Positions 167-44,409 of a stretch of 44,409 bases of DNA are shown one piece after another. Source of the stretch: Fragilaria crotonensis (taxonomy: Eukaryota; Bacillariophyta; Fragilariophyceae; Fragilariales; Fragilariaceae); NCBI GenBank assembly GCA_022925895.1, contig JAKSYS010000521.1, positions 1 to 44,409 of the forward strand. The letters run 5' to 3'. Position numbers and translations under genes: made by a program. Each line of letters opens with the position of its first letter. Positions within the stretch are counted from its first letter, which is position 1. The notes beneath the pieces are model-generated. The model ran no database searches. It worked only from the letters and a program-made list of their open reading frames with translations, and had not been told where the DNA came from.

Positions 167-1569
167 ATGAGCGTACGTCAAGCGTTGATTCTTCTGTTCG
201 CATCAACGTCGAGTTCGGCCTTTTCCTTCGCCACTGCGTCGTCCTTCGATAAGACATCGTCATCGATACCGGTATCTGCTTCTCTCATGACTTTGGGTGC
301 TTCTTCTGCTGCTGCTAGTGTCAGTGCTGCAACTGATACAATCAGTTACTACCTCGATGACGTCCCAATGGGTCCTCCCGATGCGATTCTAGGCATCGCA
401 CAGGCCTTCCGCACTTGTACTGACGAACGCAAGGTTAATGTTTGTGTTGGAGCCTACCGCGATGAGAACGGTCAACCCTGGGTGTTGCCTTCAGTGCGAG
501 CTGCCGAACTCAAGATGATGCAAGATGGTGAAAATAAGGAATATCTTCCCATTGAAGGGGATGCACAATTCATTGAAAAGGCTTTACAATTCGCCTACGG
601 TTCTGGTGACGATGCTGCTCCTCTCGAACGTTTGGCGGCTGTCCAGACCTTGAGTGGGACAGGTGCGTGTCGCATCGGTGGGACGTTCTTGGCACGGTTC
701 CTCCCTGCCACGACCAAGATTTACATTCCAGTCCCAACCTGGGGAAATCACTGGAATATCATGGCCGATGCCGGTCTTGCAGCCGAACCGTACCGGTACT
801 ATTCTCGCGCCACCAATGGACTCGATTATGACGGTATGATGCAAGATATTGAAGCTGCCGAAGATGGGAGTGTCATTCTTCTTCATGCATGTGCTCACAA
901 TCCGACTGGATGTGACCCTACTCATGAGCAGTGGAAGGATCTCTGTACCTTGATGCAAAAGAAGAAACATATTGCCTTTTCGACTCGGCCTATCAAGGCT
1001 TTGCCTCCGGCGATGCCGAACAAGATGCCTTTTCCCTTCGATACTTTTGCAGTCAAAATGTTCCCGTTCTCTTGGCGCAATCCTTTGCTAAAAACTTTGG
1101 TTTGTACGGCGAACGATGTGGTACCTTTTCCATTCTCTGCTCCTCGCCGGAACAGAAAGAAAAGGTCATGTCTCAATTGAAACTCATCGTCCGTCCCATG
1201 TACAGCAGTCCACCCAAACATGGATCATCGATTGTCAAGACTGTCCTCTCCAACGAAGCCCTGACTGCCGACTATTATCAAGAATGCAAATCCATGGCCG
1301 ATCGCATCCTGGAAATGCGTTCCAAATTTGTTCAAGCGTTGGCCGCTGCAGGATCCACGCACGATTGGTCTCATGTGACGAATCAAATTGGGATGTTTGC
1401 CTTTACCGGAATGTCACCCGATATGGTGACGGAATTGACCGACACGTATGCCATTTATTTGACCAAGGATGGACGTATCAGTGTGGCGGGGTTGAATGAT
1501 GGAAATGTCGACTATGTGGCCAAGGCAGTCCATGCCGTGACGGACGGGAAGAGTATTACTGCAGCGTAA
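167..1569 (+). CDS. AAT: Aspartate aminotransferase, probably plastid-targeted, with one frameshift
   Basis: A class I PLP-dependent aminotransferase that interconverts aspartate/2-oxoglutarate and oxaloacetate/glutamate. The first frame (from the ATG at 167) carries the AYRDENGQPWVLP and HNPTGCDPTHEQW motifs. A second frame continues with FDSAYQGFASGD, the PLP-lysine segment SFAKNFGLYGERCG and the C-terminal GRISVAGLN arginine motif. The two frames meet at the TTTT run 977-980; one extra T would join them into about 467 residues, a full-length enzyme. The N-terminus is a hydrophobic signal peptide followed by SSAF, close to the diatom ASAFAP plastid-import motif, which suggests import into the complex plastid; this is inference. 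No intron is seen. It is either a sequencing undercall or a recent lesion, because both halves are well conserved. The identification is firm; the targeting is less so. Confidence 0.9.
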
Positions 1570-1914: not shown

Positions 1915-3112
1915 CTAAGTCTTTGGACTTGATCGCTTGGACCTGCGAGCGGGATGTGCAACTATTTTTCGTTTCTTGTCTTCAGTCGCAACCGAGATAT
2001 TCTCTTCCTTGATCGACGTTTTCCCTTTTTTCTTGTCCCCAACACTTGTCCTCTTTTTCCCCTTTTTACCGCGTTCACCTTCCCCGTCATCTTCATTATC
2101 CTTGATTGTTGCTTTCACTTTCTTGAGCTTTTGAATGGATGGAACAATGGCAGCAGTCCGAGCACGTGTGATTAAAAACTCCACGACTCTGCCTTGTGAA
2201 TCCTTCACGACGGTCGATGGACTATTTGATTTCCTCCACCGTACATGAAAAATCCAATCACTGGGAAAGTCATCTCCACGAACCAAACAATCAATGGCAG
2301 TTACCAGTATCGTCTTCAAGTTGTCCAGCAACGTACGGACCTGACTTTCCGATAGGTGTGTCTGTTCGGGATGTACTTTCGATTGGTACAAAACTTCATC
2401 AGCAATCCAATTCCCTACTAATGACACGCTTTTGATCCAGCAAAATTGTTTTAATGGCAACACGCTGATTCGTCAGTTGGCGAAGAAACTTTTGACGTGC
2501 ATCCTCAGTGTCGACGGTTGTAGTGGCAGTGTCAGTGTCGGCAGTGGCAGTGGAACTGCTTCCCGTCAATACCGACAAGGCATCGGGTGCCAACTCACCA
2601 AAGCCACTTTCGAGTGATGCTTTGAACGCTACCCAACCAAATCGTCGTGGATCACTAAAGCATGCTTCGTGTGATCCACATTGGAATTTAATAAATGTAT
2701 GTTTTGGTGGGTATTCTTCAACTTCGTCATCGTCGTCATTATCATTGTCGTCACGCGACCGCTCCATGGATTTCAATGTGAGGACTCGGTTTGGAGTCGA
2801 TATCCTGCCCGTCATTCCCATGTGAAGGAAGAGATAAAAGCATTCCAATTTCGTGTTTGTACTTTTATCCTTGCCACCCACACCCTGAAGGATCATACAC
2901 ATTAGTTTTCCCTTGCGCTGTACATCGACGAGGTACACATGATTGCTCAAGTGTAGGACTTCTTCTTTTCGGACAAAGTATCGATGTGGCTTTTTGGCAC
3001 CATCCGCATTCGTCGCATCCAGAGGGATCAATTCAATGGTGAGAGCTGTCGATGTCGAGACAAGTGGAAGCAACAAACGACGAAAGCTTTCAACTTCAGG
3101 CAGTTCGGGCAT
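1915..3112 (-). CDS. FPG1: Formamidopyrimidine-DNA glycosylase (plant/fungal-type Fpg), with one frameshift
   Basis: A base-excision repair glycosylase/AP lyase for oxidised purines. The start at 3112 gives MPELPEVE, where the exposed Pro is the Schiff-base nucleophile and the following Glu is catalytic. Further family marks are QRKGKLM (the beta-elimination Lys), LHMGMTGR, FSDPRRFG, and in the second frame VGNWIADEVLYQSKVHPEQ, the helix-two-turn-helix. There is no zinc finger; the C-terminus is a long Lys/Arg-rich tail (GKKGKKR, RRSKRSSPKT), as in plant and fungal Fpg. The frame breaks at the + strand T run 2430-2433 (A run in the coding sense). Two more bases there would give a DQK-to-VGNW spacing matching the family and about 399 residues in total. 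Gln/Ser/Thr-poor conserved parts flank a Thr/Asp-rich insert. The gene is head-to-head with the glycosyltransferase at 3727. Confidence 0.9.
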
Positions 3113-3726: not shown

Positions 3727-5085
3727 ATGGTGCAACGATCGTTTGTAACAGCTGCCATTGCTTCTTTCATGGCATTTCTGTTGGTTTGTGTTTACATACC
3801 GAATCTGTTTCGAGCGATTGCTGCACTACCGGCATCACCTACACCACCTAGTAGAAGTAGCGACCAACACCGTGTTCGTCCTCATTCTCAGTTGCTAAAG
3901 CCAGTGCCCTTGAAAAATGTTGTTGTTAGTCGTGTTGCGGATGAAGTTGAAAATGTAACAAATATCACAATCGCAACAGAACCAAAGAAGAATAGAAAAC
4001 GTCGCAAACACAAACAAGCAGCACTCGACAACACCAACAATAACAACAACAGTTCCAGTACAATTTTGCTATCACGACAAATCTATCGCGGACCACTGAC
4101 ACAGCCCAATACACTCAATGATTTGAATAAAACAAAAATTGTGGGTTTCATTAGCGGTGGATATTCCAGAATTGGAAGACTATGGTACAATCGTTTGGAA
4201 ACGTTGGGCTACAACAATCATTACATCATTTGTACGGATAACGAAACTTGCAATTCGTTTCGGCAGGATGATACAAGTATTAGTACTCAACAACAATATC
4301 GCACAGAAGCCAGTTTCATACCACCTGAACCATCCAAATACGCAACACTACGATATGCCAAAAAACTACGACATCGAGTCCTAATGATGTTTGCTCATCG
4401 ATGGGTGTACCTCTTGGAACAGCTGAAACTTGGAAATCACATTTTGCTGACGGACGTGGACAATATCTTTACTTCCTATTATGATATGAACCAATTGGAA
4501 CAATCCGAATACGATGTATATCACGCACTCGAAACCAAACATCCCACAGATGTCTTTCATCATCAAGGATTTGTCTTTTGTGGTGGCATGGCATGGTTCC
4601 GTTCGTCACCTCGGACCATTCGATACATTGAAGAAATGGTTCATCGGTGTGGTATGGAATGTGACGATCAAGTCCTACTGAATCAGATACTGGCGTATGA
4701 TCTTGGCATGCAATGGAATCGAACTGGAGCGGAACATAAGGAAGTGACGACTCATACTGACGATACCAATGTAACGATTGATGGTTTAGGAAATCATTTT
4801 GATCGCATCGTTGGAATCGTCACCAAGGGATTCACGGGGTACAGTGAGGCTATTGGACTCAAGATTCAAGTTTGGGATCGTGATTTTGCCTATCGTGGCA
4901 AGGCAGATCCATCCATTTGTCCTGTCCACAACTGGGTGTCCATGCCATTCGTCACTGTCATTACTCGAGCCGAAACCATGGCAGCGAAAGAACGGTCCTT
5001 CCGTGTTTGGGATCAGCACTGTCCCAACGAGTACACGAATTTAACACGTGGGATTTCACAAAAACCAGTTGCAAGCAAATCATGA
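3727..5085 (+). CDS. Type II Golgi glycosyltransferase, single GT-A domain (Nucleotid_trans-like)
   Basis: A 452-residue protein of the nucleotide-diphospho-sugar transferase kind (PF03407-like, to which the plant GT77 enzymes belong). Residues about 7-28 form an uncleaved signal anchor (VTAAIASFMAFLLVCVYIP). Then come a linker with a basic KKNRKRRKHK stretch and Asn/Ser runs, and one catalytic unit beginning GPLTQPN at 4090. It holds LLTDVDNIF, whose DVD is the metal-binding DXD motif, and CDDQVLLNQILAYDLG. The first Met of the pair at 3724/3727 is equally possible; 3727 was chosen because the paralogue at 9460 starts MVQRSF. Several N-glycosylation sequons (NKT, NVT, NET) fit a lumenal domain. 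The sugar and acceptor are unknown. It is the single-unit version of the triple protein at 9460. Confidence 0.85.
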   Translation: MVQRSFVTAAIASFMAFLLVCVYIPNLFRAIAALPASPTPPSRSSDQHRVRPHSQLLKPVPLKNVVVSRVADEVENVTNITIATEPKKNRKRRKHKQAALDNTNNNNNSSSTILLSRQIYRGPLTQPNTLNDLNKTKIVGFISGGYSRIGRLWYNRLETLGYNNHYIICTDNETCNSFRQDDTSISTQQQYRTEASFIPPEPSKYATLRYAKKLRHRVLMMFAHRWVYLLEQLKLGNHILLTDVDNIFTSYYDMNQLEQSEYDVYHALETKHPTDVFHHQGFVFCGGMAWFRSSPRTIRYIEEMVHRCGMECDDQVLLNQILAYDLGMQWNRTGAEHKEVTTHTDDTNVTIDGLGNHFDRIVGIVTKGFTGYSEAIGLKIQVWDRDFAYRGKADPSICPVHNWVSMPFVTVITRAETMAAKERSFRVWDQHCPNEYTNLTRGISQKPVASKS

Positions 5086-9459: not shown

Positions 9460-12400
9460 ATGGTGCAGCGCTCCTTCGCAAAATCTGCCATTGCTGCCAT
9501 CATGACTTTACTGTTGGTGTGCGTATACCTTCCTAATCTTTATCGATCTATCGTTTCACTACGCCTGCCGAACGAACAGATAATAACGCCATCCGACAAT
9601 GTGCTTCTTGTTACGAGTAAAGTTTCTAAAAAGAATGCGACCAACGTCACAATGGATCGAAAGAAGGATGGACTTGTTAGTAGTACACTTTCTGAAGCAA
9701 ATGCGACCAATATCACACTTGAGGTGGAGCGAACGAAGAATGGACTTGTAGCAAGTACAGTTCCTAGAGCGAATGCGACGAATGTAACCCTGGAGGTGGA
9801 GCGAAAGAAGAAAACGCACAGACTTGTTACAAATACAGTTGCTAAGGCAAATGCGACAAATATCACTCTGGAGACAGAGCAAAAAAAGAAAAGAAAACGT
9901 CGCAAAAAAGGTGCCTACACCAATCACACATTACCACCCACAGATGGCATCCATCACGGCCCGCTCCCACAGCCCAATACGTCGGACGATTTGAATAAAA
10001 CCAAAATTGTCGGTTTTATCAACGGCGGCTACTCGGGAATTGGCAGGATATGGTACAATCGCTTGGAAACTCTGGGCTACAACAATCACTTCATCATTTG
10101 CACTGACAACGAAACTTGCGATTCGTTCCTACATGACGACACCCCTACCAAACAATATCGAACAGAAGCTAGCTTCGTACCAGCAGCATCACCTGAGTTT
10201 GCCACCCGACCATATAGTGAGAAACAGCGACGTCGAATCACAATGATGTTTGCGCATCGATGGGTGTACCTGTTGGAGCAGCTGAAACTCGGATATCACA
10301 TTTTGCTGACGGACGTGGACAACATCTTTACTTCCTATTACGATATGGGCTCGTTGGAGCAATCTGAATTCGATGTTTACCACGCTCTGGAAACGAAGCA
10401 TCCCACGGATGTGTTCGACCACCAAGGCTTTGTGTTTTGCGGAGGTATGGCATGGTTCCGTTCGTCGCCTCCCACAATTCGGTATATTGAGGAAATGGTT
10501 CGCCGCTGTGGTACGGAATGTGACGACCAAGTCCTACTTAATCAGATTTTGGCGTACGACCTTGGGGTGAAATGGAACCGAACCGAAGCCGAACACATGG
10601 AGTTGACAACGCACACGGAAGACACCAATGTGACCCTCGCCAACTTAGGAAATCATTGGGAACGGCTAGTTGGTCTAGTTACGAAGGGGTTCACGGGATA
10701 CAGCGAGGTCATGGGACTCAAGATTAAGGTTTGGGATCGCGATTTTGCCTATCGCGGCAAGTCAGATCCATCCGTTTGCCCAGAGCGTAATTGGGTGTCG
10801 ATGCCATTCGTGACAGTAGGTGTTCGGTCGGCAGTCGTCGCTGCGAAAAAACGGACCTTCGATGTTTGGGACGAGCACTGCCCAAACGAATACACTAACC
10901 GAACAAGCAATCTGTCGCTCACTTCACCACCCTCATATGAGATCTATCACGGACCGCTCACAAAGGCCAATAGATTGGACGATCTGAACAAAACGAAAAT
11001 TGTTGGTTTCATCAACGGCGGCTACTCGGGAATCGGAAGGATATGGTATAATCGCTTGGAAACGCTTGGCTATGATAATCACTACATCATTTGCACTGAC
11101 AACGAAACTTGCGATTCATTCCTACATGACGATACCAGTACACAGCAATATCGCACCGAAGCCAGCTTCGTTCCAGCCGCACCTCCTGAGTTTGCCACCC
11201 GACCGTATAACGAGAAACAGCGACGTCGAGTAAAGATGATGTTTGCACATCGATGGGTGTACCTGTTGGAACAGCTGAAGCTCGGGAATCACATTTTGCT
11301 GACGGACGTGGACAACATCTTTACTTCCTATTACGATATGAGCGAGCTGGAGCGGTCCGAATTCGATGTGTTCCACGCCCTGGAAACGAAGCACCCCAAC
11401 GACGTGTTCCAACACCAAGGCTTTGTGTTTTGTGGAGGTATGGCATGGTTCCGTTCGTCGCCTCGGACCATTCGTTTTATTAAGGAAATGGTTCGTCGCT
11501 GTGGCGCGGAATGTGACGATCAAGTCCTTCTTAATCAGATATTGGCTTACGACCTTGGCGTTAAATGGAACCGAACCAACGCCGATCACTCGGAGGTGAC
11601 AACGCACACGGAAGACACCAACGTGACTCTTGTCAACTTAGGGAATCATTGGGAACGGCTTGTTGGTTTAGTTACAGGGGGGTTCACTGGGTACAGCGAG
11701 GCCACTGGACTCAAGATTAAGGTTTGGGATCGCGACTTCGCCTACCGTGGCAAAGCGGATCCATCTATTTGTCCCGTTCGGAACTGGGTGTCGATGCCAT
11801 TCGTGACAGTGGGCCTTCGATCAGCTGCAACGGCTGCGAAAGAACGGACCTTCGACGTTTGGGACAAGCACTGCCCTAACGAGTACACTAATCGAACAAG
11901 CGACCTGGCACGAACTTCATCACCTCCAAATGAGCTCTATTTCGGTCCGCTCACACAGGCCAATTCATCGGACGTTTTGAATAAAACGAAAATTGTTGGT
12001 TTCATCAGCGGTGACTACTCGGAAATAGGCAGGATATGGTATAATCGCTTGGAAACGCTGGGCTACGACAATCATTACATCATTTGCACTGACAATGAGG
12101 CTTGCAGTGCATTCCTGAATGGCGATAACAGGACTCTACAATATCGCACGGAAACTAGCTTCGTACCGGAACTACCACCCCAGTTTGCCGCCCGACCGAA
12201 TAACACGAAACAGCGACGTCGAGTGAAGATGATGTTTGCACATCGATGGGTGTACCTGCTGGAGCAGCTGAAGCTCGGTTATCACATTTTGCTGACGGAC
12301 GTGGACAACATCTTTACTTCGTACTATAGCATGAGCGAGCTGGAGCAGTCCGAATTCGATGTCTTTCACGCTCTCGAAACGAAGCATCCCACGGATGTGT

Positions 12401-12935
12401 TCGACCACCAAGGCTTTGTCTTTGTGGAGGTATGGCTTGGTTCCGTTCGTCGCCTCGCACCATTCGGTACATTGAGGAGATGGTGCGCCGCTGTGGCATC
12501 AAGTGCGACGATCAAGTCATTCTTAATCGGATATTGGCGTTCGACCTTGGGGTGAAATGGAACCGAACCGGAGCTGAACACCTGGAGTTGACGACACACA
12601 CAGAAGATACCAACGTTACTGTTGCCAACTTAGGGAATCATTGGGAACGGCTAGTTGGTTTAGTTACGAAGGGCTTTACAGGGTATAGCGAGACCACTGG
12701 ACTCAAGATTAAGGTTTGGGATCGCGACTTCGCCTATCGCGGCAAGGCGAATCCATCCGTTTGCCCAGAGCGGAACTGGGTGTCGATGCCATTTGTGGCA
12801 GTTGTTCATCGGGCAGCCGCAGCGGCTGCGAAGGAAATGTCCTTTTATTTGTGGGATGCGCACTGCCCTAACGAGTTCACTTTCCGAACCCGTGGCGTTG
12901 CGCACAATAATTCGAGCCCTTTATCTGGTTCTTGA
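9460..12935 (+). CDS. Triple-domain type II glycosyltransferase (three tandem GT-A units), one frameshift
   Basis: About 1158 residues if one base is restored. The N-terminus (MVQRSF, then AIAAIMTLLLVCVYLPNLY) is a signal anchor nearly identical to that of the 3727 gene. Four degenerate repeats with NATNVT/NATNIT double sequons and basic ends follow (about residues 50-150). Then come three catalytic units starting at residues 167, 498 and 829, each exactly 331 residues (993 bp) apart. Every unit retains LLTDVDNIFTSYY with the DVD motif, the C-DDQV-LN-ILA-DLG block and a WDRDFAYRGK segment. In unit 3 the frame breaks at TTT 12421-12423, where units 1 and 2 have TTTT; adding one T restores the downstream 167 codons to the stop at 12933. 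The units face the Golgi lumen by topology. Substrate is unknown. Confidence 0.85.
9622..9900 (+). repeat. Four degenerate coding repeats rich in N-glycosylation sequons
   Basis: Each unit of roughly 60-75 bp encodes a variable lead, then NATNVT or NATNIT, then an acidic/basic stretch such as LEVERKKK. Every unit therefore offers two adjacent N-X-T sequons. They form the stem between the membrane anchor and the first catalytic unit. Confidence 0.75.
9958..10950 (+). repeat. Glycosyltransferase unit 1 of 3 (993 bp)
   Basis: Begins at the Gly of HGPLPQPN and ends before the Gly of YHGPLTKAN. The DVD motif is at 10312-10320. Confidence 0.9.
10951..11943 (+). repeat. Glycosyltransferase unit 2 of 3 (993 bp)
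   Basis: Same length as unit 1, with the DVD motif at 11305-11313, exactly 993 bp after that of unit 1. It is very similar to unit 1 at the DNA level by eye. Confidence 0.9.
11944..12935 (+). repeat. Glycosyltransferase unit 3 of 3 (992 bp plus a missing base)
   Basis: The last unit runs to the stop codon and would be the same period if the base missing at 12421-12423 is counted. It is the most diverged of the three in its N-terminal part (GDYSEIGRIW, NEACSAFLNGD). Confidence 0.85.
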
Positions 12936-13568: not shown

Positions 13569-15056
13569 TTACGAGTCACTCAGAACTATCTGCACTGGAA
13601 CTTCATTCCGCACTAGCGGCGGCCCATTAATTGTAAAATCTCCAACATGAGGCAACTGATTCCTCAACCAAAATAGTATTTCCTCATCGTTCAGCTTGTC
13701 CGTGTAGTTATTCGCCAACCGAGGTACCTTGTAGGTCCGAATGTTGTCTGAAAACTGAGCCACATGTTTGGCCCACGGCGAGTGCTTTTCTCCTCGAAAT
13801 ATGTATCCGATGGCTGTCTGCATCGCCAGGACTGGCATGGTGCAAAACGTGGAGGGTCCACACACGGCCACCTTGTTGGCCCGAAGGAGACGAGCGTACG
13901 ATTTGAGTGGGATTTCATCGGGACCATTGTGAATGGTAATGGTTGCATTTGGAAATTTGGTTTGCAAATAGTCGACCAAATCGTACGCGACCAATTTTGA
14001 TTTCGAAATGGTGCTGGGGGCAACATCAAATGATCGAACCAGTTCCCTCTTGAAGGGTTGAGTCACTATACCAATTGTCTTGATCGGGCCTTGTTCATGT
14101 TCAATGCTCTGCAATATCCATTCATAGGTCTGATGAGGTAAAAGACCAATGTGTTCATCTTTGGTTCCTCGCAATGCATCGCCAAGCCTCAAATGAATGA
14201 CGGCATCGTCTGGTTCAAACGATTGCCCGACACTGGTATTGACTAATTTCAACATATCTTGACGTATGACATCAATCACGGCATTCAATCCAATGGGACA
14301 CCACCATCCACCACGACTGCAGTGTTGACACAAATTCTCGGGTGCCCAACTTTGTCCACCCCATGGATCGTGTGGTTGTGGTCCCGGTTCCATCAAATGT
14401 ACGTGCAAGTGTCGCAATACGGATTCGTGTTGTGCCTTCAATGCGGATGTGGGATCCGTCGTCACGACTGTTGGGATTGCCTTTGTCACATTGTTGGAAT
14501 GATTTTCATAATCATTCGTGTCGCCACAGGACATGTGATAGGGGATGCGTGCAGAATTGGCCAACAAGTAATTGAGATAATGTTCGCCCAATCGATTTCC
14601 GAGTTGATTTTCGGCGCAATCGTCGAAATGAAAATGAAGTCCCTTGATTTGTCGACCATCTTCTGGTGAGAAGGTCTGTTGTGTTTCCCTACTATAGTTG
14701 GTGAAGAAGTTACATGGAGGAGTCTCTGGTTTGCGACGGACCTGAAGTATACCATTTTCGTCCACAATGACTTTGGACAGAGGGACGTTGAGTTTCCGGT
14801 GAACGGCATTTGTGTAATTATCCAGTTGTTCCTGTGTATCTTTCGTTGCAACAAGTAACGTTATCCACGTTAACGCTAGAGTTGCAGCCGCAACATGCTT
14901 CTTCGATACCATTGGGGTTGTTGGGGAGGCCTTGCTTCTCATGATAATCGCACACCTTCGCCACTTGTAAAAAGTGTGACTTCGGACATTAGACTGGGCA
15001 TTGATATGTTGAGATGATGTCCGAACGTTACCGCAGCGTACGGTCATAGAAGTCAT
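13569..15056 (-). CDS. Type II membrane glycosyltransferase-like protein (fucosyltransferase-like HxRxGD motif)
   Basis: A 495-residue frame from the ATG at 15056. Alternative starts at 14942 (Met39) or 14912 (Met49) would place the hydrophobic segment HVAAATLALTWITLLVAT close to the N-terminus as a signal anchor, and Met49 gives the most typical one. The lumenal part holds DDAVIHLRLGDALRG, similar to the HxRxGD GDP-fucose binding loop of alpha-1,2/1,6 and O-fucosyltransferases, and a Cys-rich LCQHCSRGGWWCPIG segment. Near the C-terminus, LLRANKVAVCGPSTFCTMPVL resembles the nucleotide-sugar end of such folds. Several N-X-S/T sequons are present. The precise activity is not established; a fucosyltransferase-like role is inference. 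It is head-to-head with the PDZ gene. Confidence 0.65.
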   Translation of the reverse strand: MTSMTVRCGNVRTSSQHINAQSNVRSHTFYKWRRCAIIMRSKASPTTPMVSKKHVAAATLALTWITLLVATKDTQEQLDNYTNAVHRKLNVPLSKVIVDENGILQVRRKPETPPCNFFTNYSRETQQTFSPEDGRQIKGLHFHFDDCAENQLGNRLGEHYLNYLLANSARIPYHMSCGDTNDYENHSNNVTKAIPTVVTTDPTSALKAQHESVLRHLHVHLMEPGPQPHDPWGGQSWAPENLCQHCSRGGWWCPIGLNAVIDVIRQDMLKLVNTSVGQSFEPDDAVIHLRLGDALRGTKDEHIGLLPHQTYEWILQSIEHEQGPIKTIGIVTQPFKRELVRSFDVAPSTISKSKLVAYDLVDYLQTKFPNATITIHNGPDEIPLKSYARLLRANKVAVCGPSTFCTMPVLAMQTAIGYIFRGEKHSPWAKHVAQFSDNIRTYKVPRLANNYTDKLNDEEILFWLRNQLPHVGDFTINGPPLVRNEVPVQIVLSDS

Positions 15057-18182: not shown

Positions 18183-18672
18183 GATGGCAGGAACAAGGAA
18201 TGATTGATGTGATACCGGTTGAAATGAAACTTGACGACCAAGATGAATATTATATACGATGGAGAGGGTTGTGTGTCTTGGAACTTGTATTCAGCTGATA
18301 GTGCGTGTGCGAACCAACACCGATCGATGATTCGATGACCGACGATGTTCGTCACGATATGGTGCATCTTCGATGATTGATGGCAGGACAGGCGACAGGC
18401 TCCTGCTAAACCTCTCACCGCAAATGGAGAGACTCTGCCAGCCAGAACGAGTACTGGTACTGGATTTGGAAACAGTACTGTACTCAAGTACTAGAGCATT
18501 GTTTTTAGCATTGTGTACAGTAGTACAGTACTGTACTGTCAAATGCGACGATAGCGGACTGTTGTGGTACAGTACCACTGGTATTTGTTTGTGCTGGGTG
18601 GTTGGAGGTCAGGCTGTGCGCAATACTATTCACTACAGTTTTCATACAACAGCACATCTTGACAATGTGCTC
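18183..18672. promoter_or_regulatory. Head-to-head intergenic region with clustered GTAC palindromes
   Basis: A 490-bp divergent promoter region between the GCK and YjbQ genes. Between about 18447 and 18545 it carries many AGTACTG/CAGTACT elements, including ACAGTACTGTAC. The frame of the YjbQ gene is open back to an ATG at 18373, but that part is low in protein-like features and is treated as 5' untranslated. Confidence 0.45.
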
Positions 18673-19352
18673 ATGTCGATTCCAACCACAGTATTGTCCC
18701 TTCTGATCTTCCTTTTCCTACTAGTCGTACCCTACACGTCTAGCCTCTCAGCTGGTGGTGGAACAAGTTCAATCTCGAACAAAATGTCCTCCATCCCGCG
18801 TTGGTTTCAACATGAGATTAGTATTACAGCTCCATCTCGAGGATGTCATTTGATTACATCTGACATTCATCGAGCCATTGCGACGGATCTGAAACAAATC
18901 AAAATTGGCATGTGCAATCTGTTTATTCAGCACACTTCGGCATCCTTGACGATTAATGAAAATGCCGATCCCGATGTTCGACGTGATATGGAGGTGGCAC
19001 TCAATTTACTGGGTGAGTGATGAAGTGAAGGACAAGTACCAAGATGTGTACCGCGAGACAAAATCACATGACTCATGCGACTACTACTCTTTCTTATTAC
19101 CAAAATAATTCAACAGTCCCCGCAACATGGAATCGTGATGGTACGTTCAAGCACACACTGGAAGGTGATGATGATATGCCAGGTCATGTCAAGTCAAGCA
19201 TCATGGGCGTTTCTCTCAACATACCCATCCAGAATGGACGTTTGGCACTCGGAACGTGGCAAGGAATATACTTGAACGAACATCGTGATCAAGGTGGGTG
19301 GGGTGGTGGACACACACGACGTATTTTAATTACATTGCAAGGACAATCGTAG
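18673..19352 (+). CDS. YjbQ/UPF0047 family protein (two exons)
   Basis: Exons 18673-19012 and 19117-19352 give 191 residues. The N-terminus [25 protein letters not shown] is a signal peptide or anchor. The body matches the YjbQ family: [28 protein letters not shown], then, after the intron, [34 protein letters not shown] and TLQGQS. Conserved His, Glu and Asp residues of these motifs line the trimer's presumed active site; weak thiamine-phosphate-synthase activity has been reported for bacterial members, but the real role is not settled. The start at 18673 was chosen because it places the signal peptide at the N-terminus; an internal Met just before [11 protein letters not shown] would give a cytosolic form. 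Confidence 0.85.
19013..19116 (+). other. Intron in the YjbQ gene
   Basis: 104 bp, GTGAGT to CAACAG, phase 1. It joins VALNLL to VPATWNRDG, which matches the uninterrupted family sequence. Confidence 0.9.
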
Positions 19353-20336: not shown

Positions 20337-20659
20337 ACCATACCGGTAGCTCTGTACTCCTATGTCCTAGGTGCATGCCTGTGTCATGCAGCAAAATGCG
20401 AACGCTGACGTCCAACATTCACATGCTCTACTAGTAGTAGGATACAGTGCAATACCGCGCAAGAAGGATACGGGTACTTGTACCCCCCCTCTAATTCACA
20501 TGATTGATCGATAGGGACCCGATCCCCAAGCGCAACAGCTGAAGTCATGTAATTAATGGGTACTCATCTACTGTACTACCATACGCCCTCCAATGTTGCA
20601 CTGAACATCAAGCCGAAGGCCAAGTGTGGATTGGTGTCTCACCTCAGACTCATAGTAGC

Positions 20660-22630
20660 ATGATGTTCGTTTGGATTGGATTCTGCCTCCGCTTCTTGCA
20701 CTACTACTCCAATCACAAAATCAGAAGCATAGCATTTGTGCCAAGTTGCATTAGAATCACTTGCGCTCGAACTACATCTTTTCGCAATTTAAGACCAAAA
20801 GGCCACAATTTGAAAGTGTTCTCCTTCACTCTATTTTCAACGATATCACTTGCGCTGCTGCCGTGTTCATCCTCATTCTCTTTCAATATCAAGACCATGA
20901 GCGAATCTTCGCCTTCTCCAATCTCCTCATCATCCTCACCATCCGTATTGATTGTCGGATCGGCCAATCAGGATCTGACGGCCTACACATGTCGTGTTCC
21001 TCGCATGGGCGAAACGATCCTCGGTCAAGACTTTTCCACATCGTGTGGTGGCAAGGGTGCGAATCAAGCCGTGGCGGCAGCTGCTCTTCTGTCGCCCATG
21101 TTTGTGGGACAAGTCGGACAAGATGTTTACGGCAAGGCATTGTTGGAGAACTTTCGAACAGCCGGGGTGTTGTATGACGAAGAAACAATCTGGGCTCCAA
21201 ACGATATTCCCACTGGAGTTGCGTCAATCATGGTGGATATCACTACAGGTGATAATACGATTGTGGTTGTTCCTGGGGCCAATCATGCCCTGACGGCGGA
21301 ACAGGTCCGAACAGCGATTCTGCGACATCGTCCCAAAGTCGTCTTGGCGCAATTGGAAGTACTACCACTAGTTGCATTGGAAGCCATGAAGGTTGGCAAA
21401 CAAATTGGTGCCACCACGATTTTGAATCCAGCACCGGCACTCTTGCCTGGAGACAAGCTCATGGCAGAGTTTTATAACAATGTCGACATTCTTACTCCGA
21501 ATGAGACTGAATTGAGACTCTTGTACGATGGTTCGTCCCCCGATGATGATGCAGCTGCCCCTTGCGATGAAGAGACCATGGCACAAAGTTTGCTCGATCG
21601 GGGGATTGCTCAGGCAGTCGTGGTAACCTTGGGATCCAGAGGTGCCATGGTCGTGTCTCACGACAAGACGACGGAGCGCGTGTGTGCTCCACCAGGTATC
21701 TTCCCCCACGACCAAGCACCTCCAGTCGTGGAAACTGTCGGTGCCGGAGATTGTTTTTGTGGAGCATTGGCAGCCTACTTGTCCACTTTGCTTTTGGAAC
21801 CATCGTCCGTAACTTCTAAATCCGACAACGACAGTGTCATGTCCCTGGCGGAATGTGCCCGATTGGCATGTGGTATGGCCAGTCTCTCCATTCGAAAGAG
21901 AGGAGCGCAATCGTCGTACCCATCTCGGAACGAAGTTCCTGATGTGTTGAAGCTCAAGTCCTTGGCACCATCGTCTACTACTGTCTCGCAAAAAGGAGAT
22001 ACAGTATTGCCAACCCTGACCTTTGTGACTGGCAATCAAAAGAAATTGGAAGAAGTGAGGAGCCTCTTGGGAGCTGGCACCAAGGCCTCCTTTCCGTTCG
22101 AGCTCGTCAATCGAAATGTTGATTTGATGGAATTGCAAGGTAATCCCCTCGACATTGCCAAGGAAAAGTGTCGTCTGGCTGCTGCCGAAATCGGAGGTCC
22201 GGTCCTGACGGAAGACACATCCTTATGCTTCAATGCACTGGGTGGACTACCTGGTCCCTACATCAAGTGGTTCCTCGAAAAATGTGGTCATGGTGGCTTG
22301 AATGATATGCTCGTCGGCTTTTCGGACAAGTCCGCCTACGCACAAACCATCTTCGCGTTCACAATGGGACCAGGTCACGAAATTCATTTGTTCGAGGGTA
22401 GGACTGACGGGACGATTGTAAGACCTCGTGGCGACAACCAGTTTGGATGGGATCCAATCTTTCAAGTTGGTACTGAAGGTGGTACGGATCAGTCCTCGAC
22501 TCTAGAGAATTGTTGTGGCAAGACATACGCCGAAATGTCCTCAGAGGAGAAAAATGCGGTGAGTCATCGCGCCAAATCCATGGCCAAGCTACAGTCATTC
22601 TTTGCCGAATTCGCGACAACGGGGTTGTAG
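20660..22630 (+). CDS. Ribokinase fused to inosine triphosphate pyrophosphatase (ITPA/HAM1)
   Basis: One uninterrupted frame encodes two enzymes. The first half is a PfkB-family ribokinase: [21 protein letters not shown], the substrate-binding [21 protein letters not shown] and the catalytic [17 protein letters not shown] (GAGD aspartate). It makes ribose-5-phosphate. After a linker near 21980, an ITPA/HAM1 domain begins with [14 protein letters not shown] and holds [24 protein letters not shown] (cut to the core here), FGWDPIFQ and [13 protein letters not shown]; it hydrolyses ITP/XTP/dITP to monophosphates. Each domain is about family length. The ATG at 20660 is the first in frame (656 residues). 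The ATG at 20897 (MSESSPSP, 577 residues) also fits and removes an Arg/Ser-rich lead of uncertain status. No frame break is seen. Confidence 0.9.
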
Positions 22631-41689: not shown

Positions 41690-44409
41690 GACATCAAAGC
41701 AGTTACAACAAAACTTCAAACGTTAGGAAACATCATCGATCAGGTGTCGTTAGGCTGGAGATTCCACTGTGCAACGAAGACGATCCTGCTACTTGCACCC
41801 AGTGGACACAAATTGATGTGCCTTCGGAAATAGTTCGGCTGCTCCAAGAACGTAACCGACGCCATTTTGGCCAAGCGCACGGAACACCCTTCACAATTCC
41901 ACCGCTCGCAGAATTATTGGGTTACACAGGTATTGGCGAAGCGCAGAAACAGTTTCTACACGGAACATTTGACGTCACAGGTTACGACGAGAGTGTTAAG
42001 CTTCTGATTCGCCATCTTCAGTACTCACATGAGTGGTCCCGCGATCTCATTCGACCAACGATAAGTGACGACGACTTCTGTGAGAAATTGAGACTCTGGT
42101 CTGAATCAACTACAACTTCTCCCTCCGGAATGCACTTGGGACACTATAAGGCTCTAATCTCCCGGCATTCTTTTTCTTCCGATGCGCCAGATGAAGATTT
42201 GACCCCGGAATTCAAAGCAAGCCGTGATGAATTGAATTATAGACAGCAAGCCCTCCGCCAACTCCGTCTGGATATGATTAATTATGCACTCGAGAGGGGG
42301 TACTCGCTTCAGCGTTGGCAAAAAGTCGTCAACACGATGCTCTTCAAAGATCCGGATAATGTGCGATTACACCGCACAAGGGTCATTCACATCTACGAAG
42401 CGGATTTTAACCTTTTCCTCGGTATCAAGTGGAGCAGCGATGCATCAAGCCGAAGATCTTCGTCTCTTAATGAAGGGCAATTTGGGTCACGGCCATATCG
42501 TAATGCCACAGATCCTGTTTTCATCGAAGAACTTCAATTGGAAATCTCTCGAGCCACCCGAAAGCCCGTCGTGTTGACAAACTATGATGCCACAGCGTGT
42601 TATGATCGGATTATCCCGAACCTAGGGATGACAGTTAGTCAGAAATATGGTGTTCCGGCAGAAGTCACCGAGAGCAACGCGTCGACCCTTGAAAAAGCTG
42701 AGTTTCATGTTCGAACAGAACTCGGAATTTCCCCCACGAGTTACCATCACGAACCAGAATTCCCAGTGTATGGCACAGGCCAGGGAAGTGCAAACTCACC
42801 GGCTATTTGGTGTTTTCTATCTAGTACCCTCTTCGATTGTTATGATACCAGGGCACATCAGGCAATTATGTTGGGATACTCATAATGATGTCAGAGTCCA
42901 CTTTGGTCTTATTGGATTTGTTGACGACTGTAATGGTCAAACAAACTCCTTTGGAAGCGACAGCTCGACTGAGACAGTTCATCAGATAGTATCTCAAGCC
43001 CAGACTAACGCGCAATGCTGGTCAGACCTCTTACACGCAAGCGGTGGCGCCCTCGAATTGAGCAAGTGTTCCACTCATATTCTTCAATGGCAATTCTCGC
43101 TTTCGGGAGCACCAGTGTTAGTTCCGATGCATTCTGGACCGGAAGTATCTATGGAAGTCTGGGATCGTCAAGCGGATTCAGCAAAAACACTACAAGTACT
43201 TCCGGCTTATAAGGCTCACAAGACTTTAGGACACTACAAGGACCCAGCGGGAACACAACGAGAGCAATACCGCCAATTGAAAAGAAGCGATGCGATTACG
43301 GCTCTTTATGTGGGAGACTCCGCTCAGTCGCCTCGAAGCGTGGACGTTTTATTTTGCATGTTATTTACCGGCAGTGAGTTATCCGTTGGCTAGCTCGTCT
43401 CTTACCAAACTGGATCTCGAACGCGTGCAGCGGAAAGCAATGTCTATAATTGTTCCACGTTGCGGATTCAATCGCAATACCAAGAAAGCGATTCTATATG
43501 GTCCCTTAGCCCTTGGAGGTGCTAATTTTCGGTCTCTGTATGTTCAACAAGGGGTTTCTCAAGTCATGATGTTCATTCGACATTGGCGCAAACAGTCGCT
43601 GACTGGGAGGTTGCTACGCATCGCTGTCTCTTGGTTCCAGGCTCAAGTCGGCGTTTCGTTCTCTATTCTTGAAAATGTTCATTCTGCGTTGCCGCAACTC
43701 GAATCCAAATGGCTCAGCTCCCTTAGATTGTTCTTAGCCAACATTGAGGCAAAGCTTCGACTCGATGTGACCTATCTTCCTGCACTCCAAAGGTTGCACG
43801 ATTTCTGCATCATGGACGCGGTGATATCATCGGGACGTTTTACTCCTAAGGAGATTTGTCGAATTAACTATTGCAGATTGTTTTTACAGGCAATCACTGT
43901 TTCTGATTTGACAAGTATGAACGGTCGTACCTTGGATCACAATAAACTGAGTGGGCGTCATTCGCTTCTCAGTAGTTCTACTCATGGGACATCTATCTAT
44001 CAAGAACGACCTTCAGAGTCAACTTGGAAGCTGTGGTCGAAGGCAAATACCCTATGGAGCAGGTCGGATGGCACTCTCATCCAACCTCTCGGTGATTGGA
44101 TCATACCCATCCACCAAATGCATCAGCGCCACCCGGCGTACTGGTTCGCCGGTCATTTGTGGGTTCGGCTTCAGGAGCAGACATACGGAAATGTACTCCG
44201 ACATCATCGGATCGATGTTTCCGTGAAACGCGTACCTATTGCGAATGGAGTGCCGCGCACAATCGAAACCTGAGTATTGGACAATTGCTCACCAAACTCA
44301 TATCTGGAATAAATCGCCCTCCTTTTGCAGGTACATTCACACAATTCGTCGCGTCACTTCCTGCCTGGGAGTTAGAGCTCTTGCATCACGTGGAGATGGA
44401 AGAAGATCC
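41690..44409 (+). pseudogene. LINE reverse transcriptase and C-terminal region, frameshifted, open at the right edge
   Basis: The longest frame (41818-42885) contains SPSGMHLGHYKAL, LNEGQFGSRPYRNATD, motif A NYDATACYDRIIPNLG (first Asp at 42586) and GTGQGSANSPAIWCFLSSTL. The YXDD-equivalent is GFVDDCNGQTNSF (42917 on) in a second frame, reached if one G is added to GGG 42873-42875. A third frame from about 43300 gives WTFYFACYLPAVSYPLASSS, VQRKAMSIIVPRCGFNRNTK and GPLALGGANFRSLYVQQGV, the connection region, and stops at 44271; a further frame (LSIGQLLTKLISGINRPPFA) runs off the window. It copies element RNA into DNA at the nick. Confidence 0.85.

Follow-up and report, generated by a model that had tools for sequence, protein, structure and literature searches.

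Glycosyltransferases with two catalytic domains per chain are well represented by LARGE, the exostosins and the chondroitin synthases. The locus described here resembles these enzymes in that a single membrane anchor carries several catalytic domains, but their domains differ in family or activity, whereas here three close copies of the same domain follow one another. The domain belongs to PF03407 (Nucleotid_trans, nucleotide-diphospho-sugar transferase), a family which we take to include CAZy GT77 and in which a DxD motif binds metal. Among the literature matches listed (the best 20 of 135 and the best 15 of 1,282), no three-unit enzyme is mentioned in the titles or the opening parts of the abstracts.

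The window is a stretch of 44,409 nucleotides from the diatom Fragilaria crotonensis (contig JAKSYS010000521.1), and the features of the three-unit gene and its single-unit relative are as follows.

3727-5085 (+): single-unit paralogue with the same N-terminal type; PF03407 42.9 bits; 76% identical to unit 1
9460-12555 (+): open reading frame (ORF) of 1031 aa in the sequence as given, ended early by the frame break in unit 3; PF03407 97.7 bits over two matched stretches
9460-9927 (+): hydrophobic anchor (about residues 5-28) and stem, residues 1-156, from hydropathy; nine of the 25 N-X-S/T sequons of the ORF
9653-9874 (+): stem segment of three tandem repeats of 72 bases (spacing 72 and 78), each with NATN(V/I)T
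9928-10920 (+): catalytic unit 1, 331 aa, from alignment; PF03407 E 2.9e-13, 50.7 bits
10921-11913 (+): catalytic unit 2, 331 aa, 85% identical to unit 1; PF03407 E 1.4e-11, 45.2 bits
11914-12423 (+): first half of unit 3, in the ORF frame, with the DxD motif; PF03407 profile positions 7-80, 17.7 bits
12420-12425 (+): frame break, near 12421; the T-run lacks one base relative to units 1 and 2
12426-12935 (+): second half of unit 3, out of the ORF frame, with a CDDQ motif; PF03407 profile positions 114-158, 14.0 bits

The initial annotation had proposed a glycosyltransferase of three exact 331-residue tandem units. The three-unit repeat is real. The units are arranged head-to-tail, their direct repeats being spaced 993 and 993 bases apart in the first halves and 993 and 992 in the second, and the DVD codons that had been placed 993 bp apart at 10312 and 11305 are joined by a third at 12298, so that each unit has one; the paralogue has its own at 4453. 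The third unit is not intact, however, as it is one base short, and the exactness holds for the spacing but not for the sequence: the in-register direct repeats are 78-88% identical to unit 1 at the DNA level, and at the protein level unit 2 shares 85% of its residues with unit 1, while the two halves of unit 3 share 76% (first) and 80% (second). At a lag of 993, windows of 60 bases match at 0.73-0.93 in register from 9940 to 11320; past the break, at a lag of 992, they match at 0.67-0.92 from 11440 to 11860. Out of register the match is only 0.18-0.38. The putative metal site, as TDVDN, is found in units 1, 2 and 3 and in the paralogue. Alignment bears out the claim that all units keep it, except that unit 3 as given loses its second half to the frame break.

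The assignment to a glycosyltransferase family is upheld by units 1 and 2 and the paralogue, all of which score above the PF03407 gathering score of 22 bits. Taken alone, the two halves of unit 3 fall below it, yet lie in the expected order on the profile. Apart from the three units per gene, the locus differs from the family in that the match spans positions 4-159 of the 208 of the profile. In NCBIfam, units 1 and 2 had no match, and the paralogue and the ORF at 13569 had chance-level matches only. As regards the GT-A fold of the family, sequence searches of the PDB gave one chance-level match in one case and none in the other, with no close solved structure, and an AlphaFold2 model of unit 1 built on an alignment of five rows from the window reached a pLDDT of 32.3, too low to bear on the fold. 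The homologue collections comprised phages, plasmids, viruses and prokaryotes: tblastn against the phages found no homologue, the plasmid collection gave a single chance-level match, and scans of viral and genome contigs gave 121 and 79 pattern matches, none of them confirmed. Because these collections hold viruses and prokaryotes, absence from them, including the phage and plasmid sets, carries no information on other algae.

The layout of the N-terminus is that of a type II Golgi glycosyltransferase, with a short N-terminal segment and one hydrophobic anchor, followed by a stem and catalytic domain that would be luminal. The hydropathy maximum of the whole ORF lies at residues 6-24 (mean 2.12), and the proposal that tandem catalytic units are carried on one N-terminal anchor is supported. 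From hydropathy and sequence, the protein is read as a membrane-anchored glycosyltransferase of predicted type II topology, with a presumed location in the Golgi. The paralogue shares the N-terminal type and a catalytic unit of the same kind, but has a single unit and a stem repeat that has not been amplified. The DNA similarity between the two genes begins at about 3705 and 9440, some 22 bases before the ATG, and the unit boundaries in the three-unit gene are those of the paralogue, where one unit stands alone. The anatomy of the gene shows a whole-domain, in-frame duplication.

How old are the units? Pairwise dS between them is 0.47-0.65, with dN/dS of 0.13-0.25, and the amplification is therefore not recent, contrary to what had been suggested; against the paralogue dS is 1.2-1.7, near saturation (second half only). 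In a codon model written for this analysis, unit 3 has an omega of 0.327, against a background of 0.128 (2 delta lnL 8.5, p ~0.0035). With unit 3 split at the break, omega is 0.38 before it and 0.27 behind it, and a value of 1 is rejected both before (p ~0.007) and behind (2 delta lnL 10.6, p ~0.001), in a test that used one of three topologies, the one with the poorest likelihood, by 2.7 log units. An omega of 1 across the entire unit 3 is rejected under all three (2 delta lnL 9.6, 18.8 and 18.4); the three topologies, which represent the duplication order, lie within 2.7 log units of one another. Parsimony with the paralogue as outgroup assigns to unit 3 alone 20 nonsynonymous and 7 synonymous changes before the break, which is close to the neutral expectation; behind the break the counts are 13 and 10. 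As judged from these codon comparisons, the gene is old and constrained and the unit copies are selectively maintained. Nevertheless, unit 3 could be decaying, given its higher omega and the near-neutral counts of its first half.

Why, then, does the reading frame end within unit 3? Since this unit is one base short, the ORF that opens at 9460 runs to 12555 and not to 12935, and the second half is out of frame; the gene span of 9460-12935 given earlier ends on a stop (12933-12935) that belongs to another frame. An intron at this point was considered; both sides of the break align to units 1 and 2 without extra DNA. The frame of the second half is free of stops for 169 codons. The longest homopolymer run in the spectrum is 7, which we do not regard as decisive. 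Two unrelated, conserved enzymes within 12 kb are frame-switched as well, also without inserted DNA. A mitochondrial-type aspartate aminotransferase at 167-1569 (+) lies in two frames, with the switch at about 979 in a T-run; PF00155 is matched at profile positions 2-183 in one frame and 178-361 in another, and both parts match the same solved chains. An Fpg-type DNA glycosylase at 1915-3112 (-) switches frame near 2420 inside the H2TH domain (profile 12-36, E 0.24, then 35-83 in the other frame), here outside any T-run; a PDB search with its first ORF gave no match. Pfam was scanned with 16 ORFs of the window, the second half of unit 3 being taken as a separate ORF, and eight of them matched above the cut-off. 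Three of these eight matched proteins, namely the three-unit gene, the aminotransferase and the glycosylase, are broken, and four (the paralogue, an amidase, the PfkB-Ham1 ORF and a DUF6824 ORF) are unbroken over the matched stretch; the eighth is the UPF0047 ORF described below.

Omega behind the break is not above that before it, so no decay is seen there, and together with the similar breaks in the two nearby enzymes this makes a sequence error the most likely origin of the missing base. Considered jointly, the breaks in the three genes are about twice as likely to be indel errors as to be a real lesion, and in the organism the gene probably has three intact units. Alternatively, the break may be genuine, a young loss of unit 3, in which case the enzyme would keep two units, followed by a remnant of 170 aa and a short tail read out of frame. 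This is the sequence as given, and the looser constraint on unit 3 (0.33 against 0.13) and the nearly neutral changes in its first half agree with it; the lack of decay past the break, where omega is 0.27 and 150 codons run without a stop, and the same kind of break in the aminotransferase and the glycosylase speak against it, and we regard it as possible but distinctly the less likely origin. A third possibility, that ribosomal frameshifting or a change at the RNA level lets the cell read past the break, is very improbable. Constraint on both sides would fit such a bypass, but inspection finds no canonical slippery heptamer at the break, and the neighbouring breaks would require it too.

The number of units could itself be questioned, since assembly of long tandem repeats is difficult, but we consider an artefact of this kind highly unlikely. 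The units differ at 12-22% of their bases and are thus not an over-expansion, while further near-identical units may have been collapsed. The initial annotation also took three units to suggest a processive or multi-acceptor enzyme. The DxD motif is kept in all three, two of them in frame as given, and the third in frame as well should the break be an error. On the other hand, nothing in the analysis points to processivity, and with 76-85% identity and conserved motifs, nothing marks the units as using different donors or acceptors, and we consider such an enzyme improbable.

Other genes of the window were also observed. PfkB (ribokinase-like) and Ham1/ITPase domains are fused in one 668-aa ORF at 20624-22630 (+). 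A 495-aa ORF at 13569-15056 (-), for which Pfam gave nothing at E values up to 0.1, contains an HLRLGD motif reminiscent of fucosyltransferases. A UPF0047 ORF at 18373-19300 (+) ends at profile position 50 of 117; beyond a stop-containing stretch it appears to resume in a different frame, and the interruption is probably an intron. A decayed retroelement perhaps lies at 41818-44273 (+), where ORFs of different frames overlap and the first of them matches a reverse transcriptase weakly, below the cut-off.

The reading that we favour, with somewhat better than even confidence, is an old, maintained three-unit type II glycosyltransferase in which the break is an error and the units act as independent beads. 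Once the gene had separated from its single-unit relative 4 kb upstream, two in-frame duplications would have copied the whole catalytic domain together with its linker, and the copies would then have been kept by selection. The three-unit protein would be made in the organism, the short T-run being an error, and its units would share a stem but have separate sites for metal and donor, so that activity is raised locally or a repetitive acceptor is bound with greater avidity. Each unit would probably be active, and independent of the others. Counted in favour of this reading are the repeat, the DxD motif, the PF03407 match, the dS and dN/dS between units, the constraint behind the break, the neighbouring breaks and the boundaries shared with the paralogue. 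Counted against it are the looser constraint and the 20:7 changes in the first half of unit 3, the sub-threshold scores of its halves, the position of the Fpg break outside a T-run, and the unbroken half of the matched ORFs, which indicates that the sequence is not broken everywhere. More speculatively, and with little probability in our estimate, the repeats of the sequon-rich stem and the units might have grown together, giving three active sites of one family that reach several points of a repetitive acceptor (a cell-wall or mucilage glycoprotein, for example), while unit 3, under looser constraint, drifts towards a new acceptor.

Several suspected errors of one or two bases in conserved genes of the window call for care with gene ends. 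If the favoured reading is true, a triple catalytic domain of such close copies, held under long selection, would be an unusual natural test of multivalency in enzymes of this kind.
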